Assembly (NCBI GenBank): GCA_009782565.1
Contig: WRIU01000003.1
Coordinates: 124,001 to 188,000, forward strand
Direction of reading: 5' to 3'
Source: Betaproteobacteria bacterium
GTDB taxonomy: Bacteria > Pseudomonadota > Gammaproteobacteria > Burkholderiales > Rhodocyclaceae
DNA: 64,000 nt
A model generated the notes under the pieces. That model was not told where the DNA came from. It saw only the letters and a program-made list of their open reading frames with translations, and ran no database searches. Each line of letters opens with the position of its first letter. The stretch's first letter is position 1. The translations under genes were made by a program, and so were the position numbers. Positions 27,309-55,082 of the stretch are shown here, piece after piece.

Positions 27309-30300
27309 ATGAACGTCAAATATCTCTTTCTCTCTGCGGTTCTCTTGCTGATTATCACAGCCGTGATCGGCGTGTCTCTCGGCTTATCCGAACCCTGGTT
27401 CTGGCTGATCGTTCCGCTGGGGGTTTTAGCCCTTTACACCGGACTGGGAGTGACGACCCGCCAGCGGGAACTTTCAAACGAGAACTTCGGCGATTCGTGC
27501 TATTACCTCGGCTTCATCGCTACCATCGTCTCGCTTTCCGCCTGCCTGTACGACATGCAGGACTCCTCCATGCAGTGGGCCACCATCGCGCAAAGATTCG
27601 GGGTCGCTCTGGTCAGTACCGTCGCCGGCCTCATTACCCGGCTCTACTACGTCGGCTTCAAGCCCAATCTCGTAGACGCAATGGACAATGCCGAAGAAAA
27701 CGCCATCACTGCCGCGCGCAAGCTGTACCGTCAGTTGAACGAGGCGCTGGCGAACATGCAGAATTTCAGCACCCAACTCGGAGACGCCTCCCGCGACGCG
27801 GTCACGCGCATCTCCAAGAGCGCCGATACGGCAGTGACGGAATTCTCCCTCAACGTCACGAGCGTAGCCGAGAAAAGCATCAAAGGCATCACCAATTCCC
27901 TCACTGAGCTGACGCAATCGAACAGGGATACGGTCACCCGTTCCATGACCAACATCGACGTGGCTGGAAAGAAGCTGGCCAATTCCATAAACAACTACAC
28001 GGATGCGGTCGAGAAGCGGCTGAGGGAAGGTATCGTGCTCCCCGACGACTACTTCGTCAGCGCGCTCCAAAAACCGGTAGGCAACCTTGGTATCAGCATC
28101 GCGCAAACAACGCAGGACCTGATGTCCCTGACCGAAAACGTCGCTACCTCCCTCAACAGCCTCCGCCCTGCCCTGGCCGAAGTACGCGAACGATCCACCG
28201 AGATCGGGGACGCGCTGGGCCATGTCATCAAACTGGCCAAGGAGCAGGAAACCATCCTCGTGAATTCCAGGGGGCAGGCTGAAACGATGGAAGCCATTGC
28301 CCAATCCCTGAATTCCGCGCAGGACAACGTCGATCAACTGTCGGGCGCGGTCGTGACCCAAACCGATGTGTTGAGCAAGTACGTGCAAGTCAGCCAGCAG
28401 CAGCAAAGCGCGATGATCGCCTCGATCAAGACCTTGGGCGAATCGCTGAACAAGCATGTCGAGAGCAGCGGCAAGCAATACACCGAAATGTCGGAAACGG
28501 TAACGACCCAGGCCAGGGAAGTTTCCCGCTACGTCACCGCCAGCCAGCAACAGCAGTCCGAGATGACAACCGCGCTCACCGCTCAGGGGGCAGCCCTGGC
28601 CGAACAGATCGAAGCCAGCCGCAAGCAATTTGCCGACACATCGGCCACGGTGCTGGCCCAAAGCGAGGCGCTGTCTCAAAACATCGAGCAGCAGACACGG
28701 CTTTCATCCGCCGTTTCCGCTCAGACCGAGGCGTTGACGCAGCAGATCGACCTGTCCCGGAAACAGCAGGCCGAATTGTCCGAAATGGCGATTGCCCAGA
28801 GCCGCGCCTTGACCGAATCCCTCGAAAACAATCGACAACAGCAGTCGGAAGCGGCCTCCGCGTTCACCACGCAAACCGAGGCGCTGGCCAAGCACATCGA
28901 CGCCAACACTCAGCACTATGCCGAGGTATCCGGCGCAGTCACCGCCCAGGGCGAGGCGCTGAACAGGTTCATCGAAAGCGGCCAGCAACAGCACGGCGCG
29001 GTTCTGACCGAAATTTCCACCCAGGGCAAAGCACTGGCTCAAAATATTGAGCAGCAAGCTCAGATAACAGCCGCAGTCCAGACCCAGGCTCAAATCCTGG
29101 AGCGCCAGACCGAGAGCAGCCATAAGCAATACAATGAAATCTCGTCTGCTGTCATCTCCCATACCCAGGCGCTGGCTCGCTACGTCGAGGCCAGCCAGAA
29201 ACAACAGCTCGAAGCCTCGGCCGCCATCGCCTCGCAGAGCGAATCGCTTGCACAGCAGGTCGACGTAAGCCGTGAGCAGTTCGCGGAACTGTCCGCCACG
29301 GTGATCGCCCAGGGCAAACAACAGGCCGATCTGACGAACGCAGCCACGGCTCAGGCTCAGACGTTGATTCAATACGTCGAAACCAGCCAGAAGCAACTGC
29401 TCGATGCCTCGGCAGCGACCGCCTCGCAAAGCGAAACTCTCAGGGCGCATGTCGACATGAGCCGTGAGCAATACGCCGAACTGTCGTCTTCGGTCGTCGC
29501 TCAGGGACAGGCGCTGGCTCGGCAGATCGAAGCCGACCAGCGGCAGCACGAAATACTCACGCAATTTGTCGAAAGCAACAAAAGGCAGCATGCCGAAGCC
29601 TCGGCAGCGGTCATCGCGCAATCCGAAGCCCTGGTTCAGTACGTCGAAACCAACCAGAAGCAGTATGCCGACGTCTCCACCGTCATCGTCACCCAGACCG
29701 AAGCGCTATCCCGGAACATCGAACTCTCCCGTCAGCAGCATGCCGACGTTTCAGCCGCCTTCGCCACCCAGAGCCAGGCGCTCAAGCAGTTCGTCGAGGA
29801 CAGCCGCAGCCAGTATTCCGACATCTCAAGCGTGGTCGTCGCCCAAAGCCATGCCATGACCAAACAGGCCGAGACCAACCAGCATCAGTACACCGAAACC
29901 CTGAGCGCCATTACCGCGCAAAGCGATGCTCTGCTCCAGCACGTCGAAAACAGCAGGAAACACTACGACGAACTGTCAGAAACGCTCCTTGCCCAAGGCA
30001 ATGCCCTGGCCGAAAACGCCGAAACTGCCCGTAGGCAGCATGAAGAAATGTCCGCCTCGGCCATCTCCCAATCCCGCGCGCTGGCGCAGTATCTCGATGA
30101 CAGCCATAAACAGCAGACCGAAATGATTGCCGCCATCGCAACGCAGGGCCAGGTGCTGTCCAGCCAGATCGAAGACAGCAAAAAACACTACGATGCCGTA
30201 TCCGCCGCAGTCATTGCCCAGAGCCAGGCCATCGAGGCATCCCAAGGGCAACAGGGCGAAATATCGGCCGAGATACTCGCTCAGGGACAAACTTTGGCCC

Positions 30301-30998
30301 AATACATCGACACGGCGCAAAAACAGTACCGGGGCATGGAAGCCTCGCTCGCCGCCCAAGGCGAGGCGCTGACCGGCCAGATCGAAATCAGCCAGAAACA
30401 ATACGACGGGCTGATCGCGCACATCGATGCCACTCAGAAGCGATATACCGACATATCGGAGGCCGTCATCTCCCAAAGCCAGTCCCTGGCTCAACAGATC
30501 GAGAACAACCGCAAGCAGCAGGCCGACATCTCCAGCACGATCATGTCCCAGAACCGGGCGCTGACGCAGCACATCGAAACCAGCCAGAAGCAATACGCTG
30601 AAGCCTCTGCCGCAATGCTCAAGCAGGGACAGGCCATCGAAGCTGGCCGCGTCCAGCAAACCGAAATGTCCGCCACAGTCATTACGCAGAGCAAAGCCTT
30701 GACTCAACAACTCGATACCAGCCAGAAACAGTACAGCGACATCTCTTCTGTCATCATGGCGCAAAACCAGGCCGTGAAGCAGATTATCGAGGCCAGCCGC
30801 TTGCAGCAGGAACAGATCATCGAAATCAACCGCTCCCAGCAAGAAGAAATGTCATCCGCGTTCCAAGAGCAAGCCCGTCTGTTATCCGAACAAATCCAGC
30901 AATCGAACAAGGAACTCTCGCTTATCAAGCAAGCACTCCTGGCGATGCGCCGATATTTCCAGGAACAGGCGAGTGGCGGCGCAACTGACAGGCAGTAA
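27309..30998 (+). CDS. MotA/ExbB/ZorA-like membrane protein with giant 25-residue-repeat coiled-coil tail
   Basis: The protein has 1,229 residues. Four hydrophobic helices lie at about 4-25, 30-48, 63-81 and 92-115. The last two, YYLGFIATIVSLSACL and FGVALVSTVAGLITRLYYV, resemble the pore helices of MotA/TolQ/ExbB/ZorA proton channels, including the small and hydroxyl residues in ALVSTVAGL. A linker (116-349) leads into a tail from about 350 to 1,200 made of some 33 units. The unit consensus is (A/S/T)Q(S/G/T)-AL-Q-IE-S-KQY-E-S--(V/I) with a 25-residue period. There is no C-terminal domain. The partner gene follows by 37 bp. By analogy with ZorA the tail would project into the cytoplasm. Function is unknown; defence, motor or envelope-sensing roles are all inference. 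Confidence 0.7.
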   Translation: MNVKYLFLSAVLLLIITAVIGVSLGLSEPWFWLIVPLGVLALYTGLGVTTRQRELSNENFGDSCYYLGFIATIVSLSACLYDMQDSSMQWATIAQRFGVALVSTVAGLITRLYYVGFKPNLVDAMDNAEENAITAARKLYRQLNEALANMQNFSTQLGDASRDAVTRISKSADTAVTEFSLNVTSVAEKSIKGITNSLTELTQSNRDTVTRSMTNIDVAGKKLANSINNYTDAVEKRLREGIVLPDDYFVSALQKPVGNLGISIAQTTQDLMSLTENVATSLNSLRPALAEVRERSTEIGDALGHVIKLAKEQETILVNSRGQAETMEAIAQSLNSAQDNVDQLSGAVVTQTDVLSKYVQVSQQQQSAMIASIKTLGESLNKHVESSGKQYTEMSETVTTQAREVSRYVTASQQQQSEMTTALTAQGAALAEQIEASRKQFADTSATVLAQSEALSQNIEQQTRLSSAVSAQTEALTQQIDLSRKQQAELSEMAIAQSRALTESLENNRQQQSEAASAFTTQTEALAKHIDANTQHYAEVSGAVTAQGEALNRFIESGQQQHGAVLTEISTQGKALAQNIEQQAQITAAVQTQAQILERQTESSHKQYNEISSAVISHTQALARYVEASQKQQLEASAAIASQSESLAQQVDVSREQFAELSATVIAQGKQQADLTNAATAQAQTLIQYVETSQKQLLDASAATASQSETLRAHVDMSREQYAELSSSVVAQGQALARQIEADQRQHEILTQFVESNKRQHAEASAAVIAQSEALVQYVETNQKQYADVSTVIVTQTEALSRNIELSRQQHADVSAAFATQSQALKQFVEDSRSQYSDISSVVVAQSHAMTKQAETNQHQYTETLSAITAQSDALLQHVENSRKHYDELSETLLAQGNALAENAETARRQHEEMSASAISQSRALAQYLDDSHKQQTEMIAAIATQGQVLSSQIEDSKKHYDAVSAAVIAQSQAIEASQGQQGEISAEILAQGQTLAQYIDTAQKQYRGMEASLAAQGEALTGQIEISQKQYDGLIAHIDATQKRYTDISEAVISQSQSLAQQIENNRKQQADISSTIMSQNRALTQHIETSQKQYAEASAAMLKQGQAIEAGRVQQTEMSATVITQSKALTQQLDTSQKQYSDISSVIMAQNQAVKQIIEASRLQQEQIIEINRSQQEEMSSAFQEQARLLSEQIQQSNKELSLIKQALLAMRRYFQEQASGGATDRQ

Positions 30999-31035
30999 CG
31001 GACTGACAGGCGATTTATTTTGAGACGGGCGACCG

Positions 31036-32169
31036 ATGTATAGAGGCAACGACAGCGTTTTCAGGTTTTCCCTGATCGGAATCGCGTTCATTTTCATTTT
31101 CTTCCTGCTGATCGTATTCAGCCGGATGTATACCGACACGAGCATGGTACGCACGGAGACGCTCGTCCGCCTGGATCAGCAGCAGGAAGGTGCCTTACCC
31201 CTTGCACAGCAGGAAGCGTTTGAAGTCGCCCGGCAGGAACTTCAAGACCAACTCTCGGAGGAAGGCATCAACGCCAATGAGGTCATCCGCGCCCTGCTCG
31301 ACAAGGCAAAAATGGAAACCGAGCTCGCTACCGCGAAAAAACGGATACAGGAACTCGGCGCGCAACTGATGGGGTTAAACGAAGCCAGGAAAGTACTGAC
31401 GCAGACAAGCAGGACCCCCGTTCTGGACGGGACGAGCGCAGAACTGCTGGTTTCAGCGCTCGAACTGCACGCCCGGTTGGAGCAGGAATTTCTGTCAACG
31501 ACGCCCAGCGCAGATAAACTCACCGACAGCGAGATCATCTCCAGGGCGTTAGCAGCCGTTTATTTCAAAAGGAACATCGAAACCCTGGTCGAAAGGGAAC
31601 TCGGCCTGCCACTCGTACCAGGACAAGACCCTGCGTGGGAACAATGGTTGCTTACCGACTCGCAATCGTTCAAATCACTGCTGGCCGAATCAGCCACAAG
31701 CAGAGCAATCGGTGGAGGAAGCGCATCACGCGCAACGGACGGCGGGAACAGCGCCCTGCGCGCGCAAATTGCTTTTTTGCGCGCCCGCCTGGAAGGGCAT
31801 GGCGACAGAGCTACCCCGCCTTGCTGGTTCGACAGCGCGGGCAGGGCTCAACTCCTTCTCTCCATTGAATTATCATTGCCGCGCTCTGGCTCCACCAACA
31901 TCAACAACGTCAACGTCACAGTCAAGCCCGCCTGGCCGCCTGGGCGAGAAAACAGCGCGCGAGCCATACCCGGCATCAAACAGATAAACAGTAACCAGCC
32001 CTACACTTACGCCAATTTCAAGGAAGAACTCGCCCACAACATCGCCCAGCACGGCGGCCAACAGTGCCGTTACTCCGTGCAAGTGTCAGACAAGCTGAGA
32101 AGAGGCATGCTTTCCGAGAAGATTCACAAAGACCTTGAAACCTTTTTTCATCTGGCCGGTTCGGGCTGA
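31036..32169 (+). CDS. Single-pass MotB/ExbD/ZorB-position membrane partner
   Basis: The 377-residue protein has a short polar N-terminus (MYRGNDSV), one hydrophobic helix (about 10-29) and the rest presumably periplasmic. This is the MotB/ExbD/ZorB topology, and it directly follows the channel-like gene. An acidic residue (Asp6) lies just before the helix, close to where the proton-carrying Asp sits in MotB/ExbD. Residues 35-125 are predicted coiled coil. A low-complexity Gly/Ser linker (about 222-245) leads to a C-terminal domain with PPCWFDSAGRAQLLLSIEL and a final CRYSVQVSD...LETFFHL. I do not recognise an OmpA-like peptidoglycan-binding motif, so ZorB/MotB equivalence is topological only. 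Confidence 0.6.
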   Translation: MYRGNDSVFRFSLIGIAFIFIFFLLIVFSRMYTDTSMVRTETLVRLDQQQEGALPLAQQEAFEVARQELQDQLSEEGINANEVIRALLDKAKMETELATAKKRIQELGAQLMGLNEARKVLTQTSRTPVLDGTSAELLVSALELHARLEQEFLSTTPSADKLTDSEIISRALAAVYFKRNIETLVERELGLPLVPGQDPAWEQWLLTDSQSFKSLLAESATSRAIGGGSASRATDGGNSALRAQIAFLRARLEGHGDRATPPCWFDSAGRAQLLLSIELSLPRSGSTNINNVNVTVKPAWPPGRENSARAIPGIKQINSNQPYTYANFKEELAHNIAQHGGQQCRYSVQVSDKLRRGMLSEKIHKDLETFFHLAGSG

Positions 32170-54997: not shown

Positions 54998-55008
54998 CCA
55001 TGACAGGG

Positions 55009-55082
55009 CTGGGGAGGAAGGATTCGAACCCTCGAATGCCGGAATCAAAATCCGGTGCCTTGACCAACTTGGCGACTCCCCA
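55009..55082 (-). tRNA. tRNA-Gln (anticodon TTG)
   Basis: A complete 74-nt cloverleaf reads on the minus strand: acceptor TGGGGAG pairs with CTCCCCA, D-arm GCC/GGC, anticodon stem CCGGA/TCCGG with loop TTTTGAT (anticodon TTG), variable CATTC, and T-arm GAGGG-TTCGAAT-CCTTC. The discriminator is G73. The next bases are CCC, so the terminal CCA is not encoded. Only one base lies between its 5' end (55082) and the ispE stop codon (55084-55086). Confidence 0.97.

Follow-up and report, generated by a model that had tools for sequence, protein, structure and literature searches.

Within the genome of a betaproteobacterium of the family Rhodocyclaceae (GenBank assembly GCA_009782565.1), we analysed a stretch of 64,000 nucleotides (contig WRIU01000003.1, positions 124,001 to 188,000 of the forward strand; hereafter "the window," numbered from its first letter) that carries two adjacent genes, A and B, encoding a membrane protein with a giant repeat tail and its single-pass partner. 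We suggest, giving the idea close to an even chance, that this pair descends from a motor-type complex, is no longer coupled to ions, and now serves as an envelope-anchored rod in the cytoplasm. A preliminary description of this DNA, made from sequence, had proposed a ZorA/ZorB-like proton-channel module; beyond that description, we find that the pair occurs throughout the genus, that its relatives stand in a four-gene operon, and that the acidic residue of the B membrane helix has gone.

Gene A (27309-30998, 1229 amino acids) is followed after 37 bp (30999..31035; 14 to 42 bp in the 15 other loci of the genus with both genes on one contig) by gene B (31036-32169, 377 amino acids), both on the plus strand, as are all features of the pair given below. 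The open reading frames (ORFs) and AlphaFold2 models bear out the layout described earlier: a two-gene arrangement, a four-helix A, a 37 bp gap and a single-pass B. Residues 1-118 of A (27309..27662) make up four membrane helices, a MotA/ExbB-like pore part with a conserved FGDSCYYLG motif. The model places helices at 3-24, 29-50 and 57-82 and a long helix from 90, its membrane part reaching about residue 118, with a block-mean predicted local distance difference test score (pLDDT) of 72 to 91 over residues 1-120. A first cytoplasmic helical part (residues 119-345, 27663..28343), modelled at low confidence, holds a PDDYF element shared with short-tailed relatives, and is followed by the repeat tail (residues 346-1207, 28344..30929) and a C-terminal end with the stop codon (30930..30998). 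In the AlphaFold2 model B has a single membrane helix (residues 7-31, 31054..31128) and a long helical, presumably periplasmic part (residues 32-255, 31129..31800). Its C-terminal alpha/beta domain (residues 256-377 and the stop codon, 31801..32169) carries the conserved Cys263-Trp264 and Cys344, has a weak TolR/ExbD likeness, and is confidently modelled over residues of about 260-377.

A genome scan returned 36 loci: 14 long-tailed ones from the window's genus, one short-tailed one from the same genus, and 21 short-tailed ones from elsewhere. Long-tailed A proteins measure 1043 to 1342 amino acids (median 1216, n=15) and short-tailed ones 423 to 575 (median 480, n=22), the cytoplasmic part having grown from about 350 residues to about 1100, mostly by 25-residue repeats. 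In a tree of 37 A proteins built on their first 300 residues, and rooted at midpoint for drawing only, the 15 long-tailed rows form one clade (support 100/100), sister to L036 and L041 (joint clade 100/98). Both of these are short-tailed loci with four genes, and L036 comes from a genome of the window's genus (G006). The long-tailed form thus has one origin in the tree.

This clade has lost the residue expected at the ion site. In ExbD, a membrane aspartate is the ion site. Published work places the ion site of MotB and ZorB likewise at a membrane Asp, which faces a Ser/Thr ring on the A subunits (PMC11890865; PMC9389320). An acidic residue of this MotB/ExbD and ZorB type, in the N-terminal part of the B helix, is present in the short-tailed proteins and absent from the long-tailed ones: residue 15 of B (31078..31080) is Gly in 17/17 long-tailed proteins, and Glu in 22/22 short-tailed and 3/3 alphaproteobacterial ones. 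Judged by its place and conservation, Glu15 is probably the counterpart of the motor aspartate. On the A side, position 14 of helix 1 (Leu in the window, 27348..27350) is Lys in all 22 short-tailed proteins and in none of the 15 long-tailed ones (Leu 5, Gln 5, Glu 4, Ser 1), and Phe71 follows the same pattern (22/22 and 0/15). Thr72 (27522..27524) and Thr104 (27618..27620), both kept in the window, are Thr in every short-tailed protein and in 9/15 and 4/15 of the long-tailed ones, respectively. The three alphaproteobacterial A proteins keep the Ser-Thr of helix 4 and are without the Lys. Invariant in both groups are A Asp62, Ser63, Cys64, Tyr65, Tyr66, Leu67, Gly107 and Arg111, and Arg96 is nearly so; B Cys263, Trp264 and Cys344 are present in 17/17 long-tailed proteins and in 21, 21 and 22 of the 22 short-tailed ones. 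The long-tailed clade has also gained conserved positions of its own, with B Tyr2, Arg3, Trp201, Trp204 and Glu361 found in 17/17.

In these counts, L024 and L035, in which contig ends remove the N-terminal part of A, contribute to B (17) and not to A (15), and the A start of G013, which lies on another contig (L088), is not counted. L038 duplicates the locus L039 and entered neither the tree nor the residue counts; L040 is L036, and L087 repeats L052. The Glu is also visible in two short-tailed loci that are not among the 22, L086 (a four-gene locus of genome G269) and L107, and other extra relatives, in which the search pattern found no B, were left out of the Glu count. The B gene of L046 is broken over two frames, and its N-terminal part entered the residue counts and not the B alignment, which also excludes the alphaproteobacterial B proteins.

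The tail has a period of 25 residues: similarity at lag 25 was 1.16, against -0.34 (sd 0.066) in 500 shuffles, none of which scored as high (z 22.6). We identified 31 repeat units over A residues 269-1207, of which 28 score above 60 and span residues 346 to 1171, and the 862 residues from 346 to 1207 contain neither Pro nor Cys. In the consensus AAVAAQSEALAQQIETSQKQYAELS, positions 3, 10, 14 and 24 are mostly apolar and positions 7, 17 and 21 small or mixed; these seven are spaced 4-3-4-3-4-3-4, equivalent to three heptads and a four-residue step, a pattern that established coiled-coil geometry associates with a nearly straight coil. As one helix the tail would measure 129 nm (862 x 0.15 nm), in agreement with the earlier figure of about 850 residues and about 120 nm, and the whole part after helix 4 would reach about 167 nm.

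The pair is general in the genus and is maintained. Profiles of A and B matched 17 and 18, respectively, of the 21 genus genomes, and each matched all 12 good ones (completeness of 90% or more, contamination of 5% or less); the genomes with neither gene (G002, G016 and G020) are in 260 to 340 contigs and are either less than 90% complete or 9% contaminated. A survey of homologues, put forward earlier as a check on fixed pairing, found A directly before B in 16 of the 18 fetched genus loci, G028 included, and in the other two the contig starts inside the tail of A. Matches were found in 14/297 genomes of a family sample (11 from the genus, three from other genera), in 3/369 of a class sample, the window genome not counted (one a doubtful, broken match), and in 7/398 of a phylum sample; the A-B family is rare outside the genus. 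Between the window and its nearest sister, A had a ratio of nonsynonymous to synonymous substitution rates (dN/dS) of 0.13 (repeat tail 0.10) and B one of 0.19; in three other pairs the values for A ran from 0.13 to 0.23 and those for B from 0.25 to 0.30. Residues 1-40 of B in the window pair gave 1.8, a value based on 40 codons and a dS of 0.04, too little silent change to be read. The A-B pair is under purifying selection. It need not stand in for MotB or ExbD/TolR, because the genus keeps its own genes for both (13/13 and 12/12 genomes tested).

The short-tailed relatives suggest the source of the pair. In 18/22 short-tailed loci the order is gene 1 (about 480 amino acids), gene 2 (about 268 amino acids), A and B (for example L042:3714-8760; also L040, L041, L043-L051, L053-L056, L058 and L059). 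In a nineteenth (L073) the contig starts within gene 2, and L039, L052 and L057 hold A and B without genes 1 and 2. Only one of the 21 genus genomes has genes 1 and 2, G006, and it has the full operon. The window pair is homologous to A and B of this operon and equally adjacent; unlike the operon, it is without genes 1 and 2 and without Glu15, and its tail is about three times as long. Gene 1 encodes a multi-helix protein (in L058, from Caviibacterium, it is split over two ORFs of 167 and 309 amino acids, L058:3732-5164), and the gene 2 product has conserved LCPxSGPxGH and LLVDxTDP stretches. The latter resembles a von Willebrand A type domain, a likeness that no tool supported and that we set aside. 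In Pfam, NCBIfam and PADLOC, no named family and no row above chance level came up for genes 1 and 2, PDB profile searches with them found no match better than E 0.078, and gene 2 of L042 matched none of 50,697 phage records. The same four-gene order is found on all three alphaproteobacterial plasmids examined (L118, L119 and L120), out of 24 that match gene 2. In L118 and L119 the annotation of B is OmpA family protein, suggesting a C-terminal domain of B that varies from branch to branch. For B of the window, the Pfam search at E 1 returned no OmpA row, and fold comparison leans weakly to TolR/ExbD.

We propose that A is the wheel and B the axle of a complex of the MotAB/ExbBD/ZorAB type, and that they share an ancestor with a four-gene system that is presumably energised. 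Use of the ion gradient would very probably have stopped in the genus, where the B carboxylate has become Gly, the A Lys and both genes 1 and 2 are lost, and the threonines of most members have drifted; by analogy with known motors, the short-tailed relatives, because they keep Glu and Thr, should be energised and the window clade should not. Five A and two B subunits may span the inner membrane as an immobile anchor. The C-terminal domain of B would then lie in the periplasm, and a bundled rod as much as 130 nm or more long would extend into the cytoplasm, where it could act as a static strut, spacer or docking scaffold. A mechanical or architectural function is the likeliest, given that pair, tail and periplasmic domain are all retained by selection. 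The fullest form of this proposal is that a genus-wide 5:2 ion motor was switched off for good and is now a five-helix membrane-anchored bundle of at least 130 nm, serving as an internal strut or ruler, and that its source is an unnamed energised four-gene system found partly beside defence genes; this we regard as possible, though somewhat short of an even chance.

Several observations count against the proposed static rod. When the apolar residues of the tail were examined by Fourier analysis, no clear coiled-coil period emerged: relative power between 3.5 and 3.67 residues was low (0.1 to 4.2), and the highest value among the periods tried was 11.2 at 5.0 residues. Acids are new in part of the clade at A Glu14 (4/15) and A Glu48 (7/15), and together with the weak tail periodicity they weaken the strut reading. 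A of the window keeps Thr72 and Thr104, so the claim of ion loss depends on B, and all 15 long-tailed A proteins keep Asp62 and Asp82 in helix 3; with these residues some ion pathway may persist. An automatic alignment with ExbD proteins of the genus set Glu15 and the motor aspartate three columns apart. The pair also evolves faster than argJ (55-91% identity for the first 260 residues of A and 46-85% for B; 84-93% for argJ). Finally, loss of genes and loss of the Glu were not one event, since L039, L052 and L057 are without genes 1 and 2 and keep the Glu; we therefore rejected the idea that two-gene organisation as such is tied to the loss.

Some of the same residues would serve a complex that is still ion-driven, like the stand-alone motor or sensor of the preliminary description. 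In it the ion would be carried by a different group, for instance A Asp62 together with water beside the B Gly, and the tail would transmit rotation or a conformational change to the cytoplasm. Such a complex would be in keeping with the invariance of A Asp62, Ser63, Gly107 and Arg111 and near-invariance of Arg96 in both groups, with the two threonines of the window, and with Glu14 or Glu48 where they occur. We nevertheless consider it unlikely, though worth serious weight: the Glu of the B helix is lost in 17/17 while the A threonine positions drift, and no clade-wide acid replaces it, the long-tailed membrane helices holding no new clade-wide charge save B Arg/Lys10 at the helix start.

The window pair is not Zorya, because it has no ZorC, ZorD or ZorE neighbours and no acidic residue in the B helix. 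It does share with ZorA/ZorB a MotA-type membrane part, a long helical cytoplasmic tail, and a following one-helix partner with a periplasmic part. Unlike Zorya, the window pair is found genus-wide and beside housekeeping genes, and its A exceeds each of two ZorA chains in the PDB (8qyd, 729 amino acids; 8qyk, 495) in length by a factor of 1.7 to 2.5. Family models do not identify A as ZorA, the weak PADLOC ZorA match (E 0.077) covering the cytoplasmic part only (residues 123-349). PF15611, which we take to be the ZorC domain, exceeded its cut-off in 0/13 genomes, G008 giving a single weak match; no genome-wide search was made for ZorD or ZorE. The preliminary proposal of a ZorA/ZorB-like proton-channel module is supported in part, with MotA_ExbB matches in all 22 short-tailed relatives and no acidic residue in the B helix of the window.

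That the pair might instead be a stand-alone envelope defence module, sensing cell-wall damage and signalling through its tail like the Zorya motor without a nuclease partner, draws on the neighbours of its short-tailed relatives, which are often defence-type genes. Ten of 109 flank proteins were selected for a defence-like look, and nine of them, in 8/20 short-tailed loci, match PADLOC at 1e-5 or better; they include type III restriction enzymes at L042 and L052, and several others match only helicase or SMC-type models. Without such selection, the 109 flank ORFs of 20 short-tailed loci (those outside the genus, of which there are 21, less L039) matched 144 PADLOC models. The 68 flank ORFs of 14 long-tailed loci, however, matched 15, a few of them strongly (for example RT_UG29 at 3e-47 in one protein), a rough comparison since the counts are of models rather than proteins and the sets differ in size and organisms. 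The long-tailed pair is moreover genus-wide, with argJ upstream in all seven subclade loci, and no genome of the 13 has a ZorC domain over cut-off. Zorya defence requires ZorB D24 and the ZorA tail (PMC11890865). We therefore regard a defence module as quite improbable for the long-tailed pair. A thermonuclease (SNase) gene may be a fifth member of the four-gene operon: 3/109 flank ORFs match SNase, by our reading those of L048 (L048:2962-3687), L049 (L049:8690-9214) and L053 (L053:2997-3563), placed likewise by reading, and SNase genes are annotated beside two plasmid operons (L119:3813-4478 and L120:10101-10793).

Assignment of A to the MotA/ExbB superfamily comes through its homologues. MotA_ExbB (PF01618) is matched by the N-termini of 22/22 short-tailed A proteins at E 0.1 or better (best 7.2e-7) and not by A of the window. 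Among the members whose bit scores were displayed, L042 falls just below the curated Pfam cut-off (22.8 against 22.9 bits) and L059 lies below it (15.8). Alone, A of the window gave only chance-level rows in Pfam, PADLOC, NCBIfam and the PDB and no significant family match. A PDB profile search with its residues 1-330 was filled with coiled coils, and one with the short-tailed membrane part alone found no match. Neither model had a Foldseek match at E 0.001 or better, and the best structural matches of A include designed bundles. B likewise gave chance-level rows in Pfam, PADLOC and NCBIfam, apart from one NCBIfam replication factor C row in its helical part (residues 42-113, E 0.00013), which at 21 bits against a cut-off of 317 we read as coiled-coil noise, and its PDB profile search found no match better than E 0.021. 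The lack of a significant family or PDB match for A of the window, and the designed bundles among its structural matches, might be expected if A were an unrelated coiled-coil membrane scaffold resembling MotA by chance. Every close homologue, however, matches MotA_ExbB and has beside it a one-helix partner, annotated as OmpA family in 2/3 alphaproteobacterial operons, and we consider a chance likeness very improbable. A decaying, functionless remnant of the four-gene operon, as the loss of two genes and a conserved Glu might suggest, is scarcely credible and was rejected on the basis of dN/dS well below 1 in all four pairs; against it stand also reading frames that stay open over 1043 to 1342 codons in 15 genomes, and the clade-specific B Tyr2, Arg3, Trp201 and Trp204 in 17/17.

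The fold family is a known one; no carboxylate-less member with a tail this long came up in the libraries and literature searched. Unlike MotA/MotB, ExbB/ExbD and TolQ/TolR, the window pair has a giant repeat tail and is without the conserved carboxylate. Neither the four-gene operon nor the long-tailed pair appeared in the literature searched, mostly at abstract level, which is not proof of their being unprinted.

The host genome is 2.27 Mb and the window lies on its contig 3. Upstream of A are secA and argJ, and downstream of B are RDD, SpoIIM, an ORF without family, DUF4129, DUF4350, a MoxR-type AAA_3 ATPase and DUF58; neighbour annotation thus agrees with the earlier account of argJ and MoxR-operon flanks without ZorC, ZorD or ZorE. 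All seven loci of the window's subclade that hold the start of A have argJ directly upstream, and the other genus loci with at least 4 kb of upstream sequence (L027, L033, L034, L036 and L037) do not, the remainder being cut by contig ends; the position is therefore inherited in the subclade and not fixed in the genus. By our reading, the pair in L027 adjoins dnaN and dnaA (L027:364-2973), and the operon in L041 adjoins gyrB and dnaN (L041:1-3668; dnaN by Pfam), both near a replication origin. The sole tRNA gene that ARAGORN found in the window is tRNA-Gln (ttg), at 55007-55082.

In the published systems considered, the MotAB/ZorAB family is understood as ion-driven, and a clade under selection without the key residue would show that its scaffold has value without ion flow. 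The long-tailed clade is in this sense a natural experiment on which residues matter, and its very long repeat tail offers a testable case of an envelope-anchored cytoplasmic rod. Its four-gene relatives, which match no named system in the libraries searched, are a candidate for defence screening.

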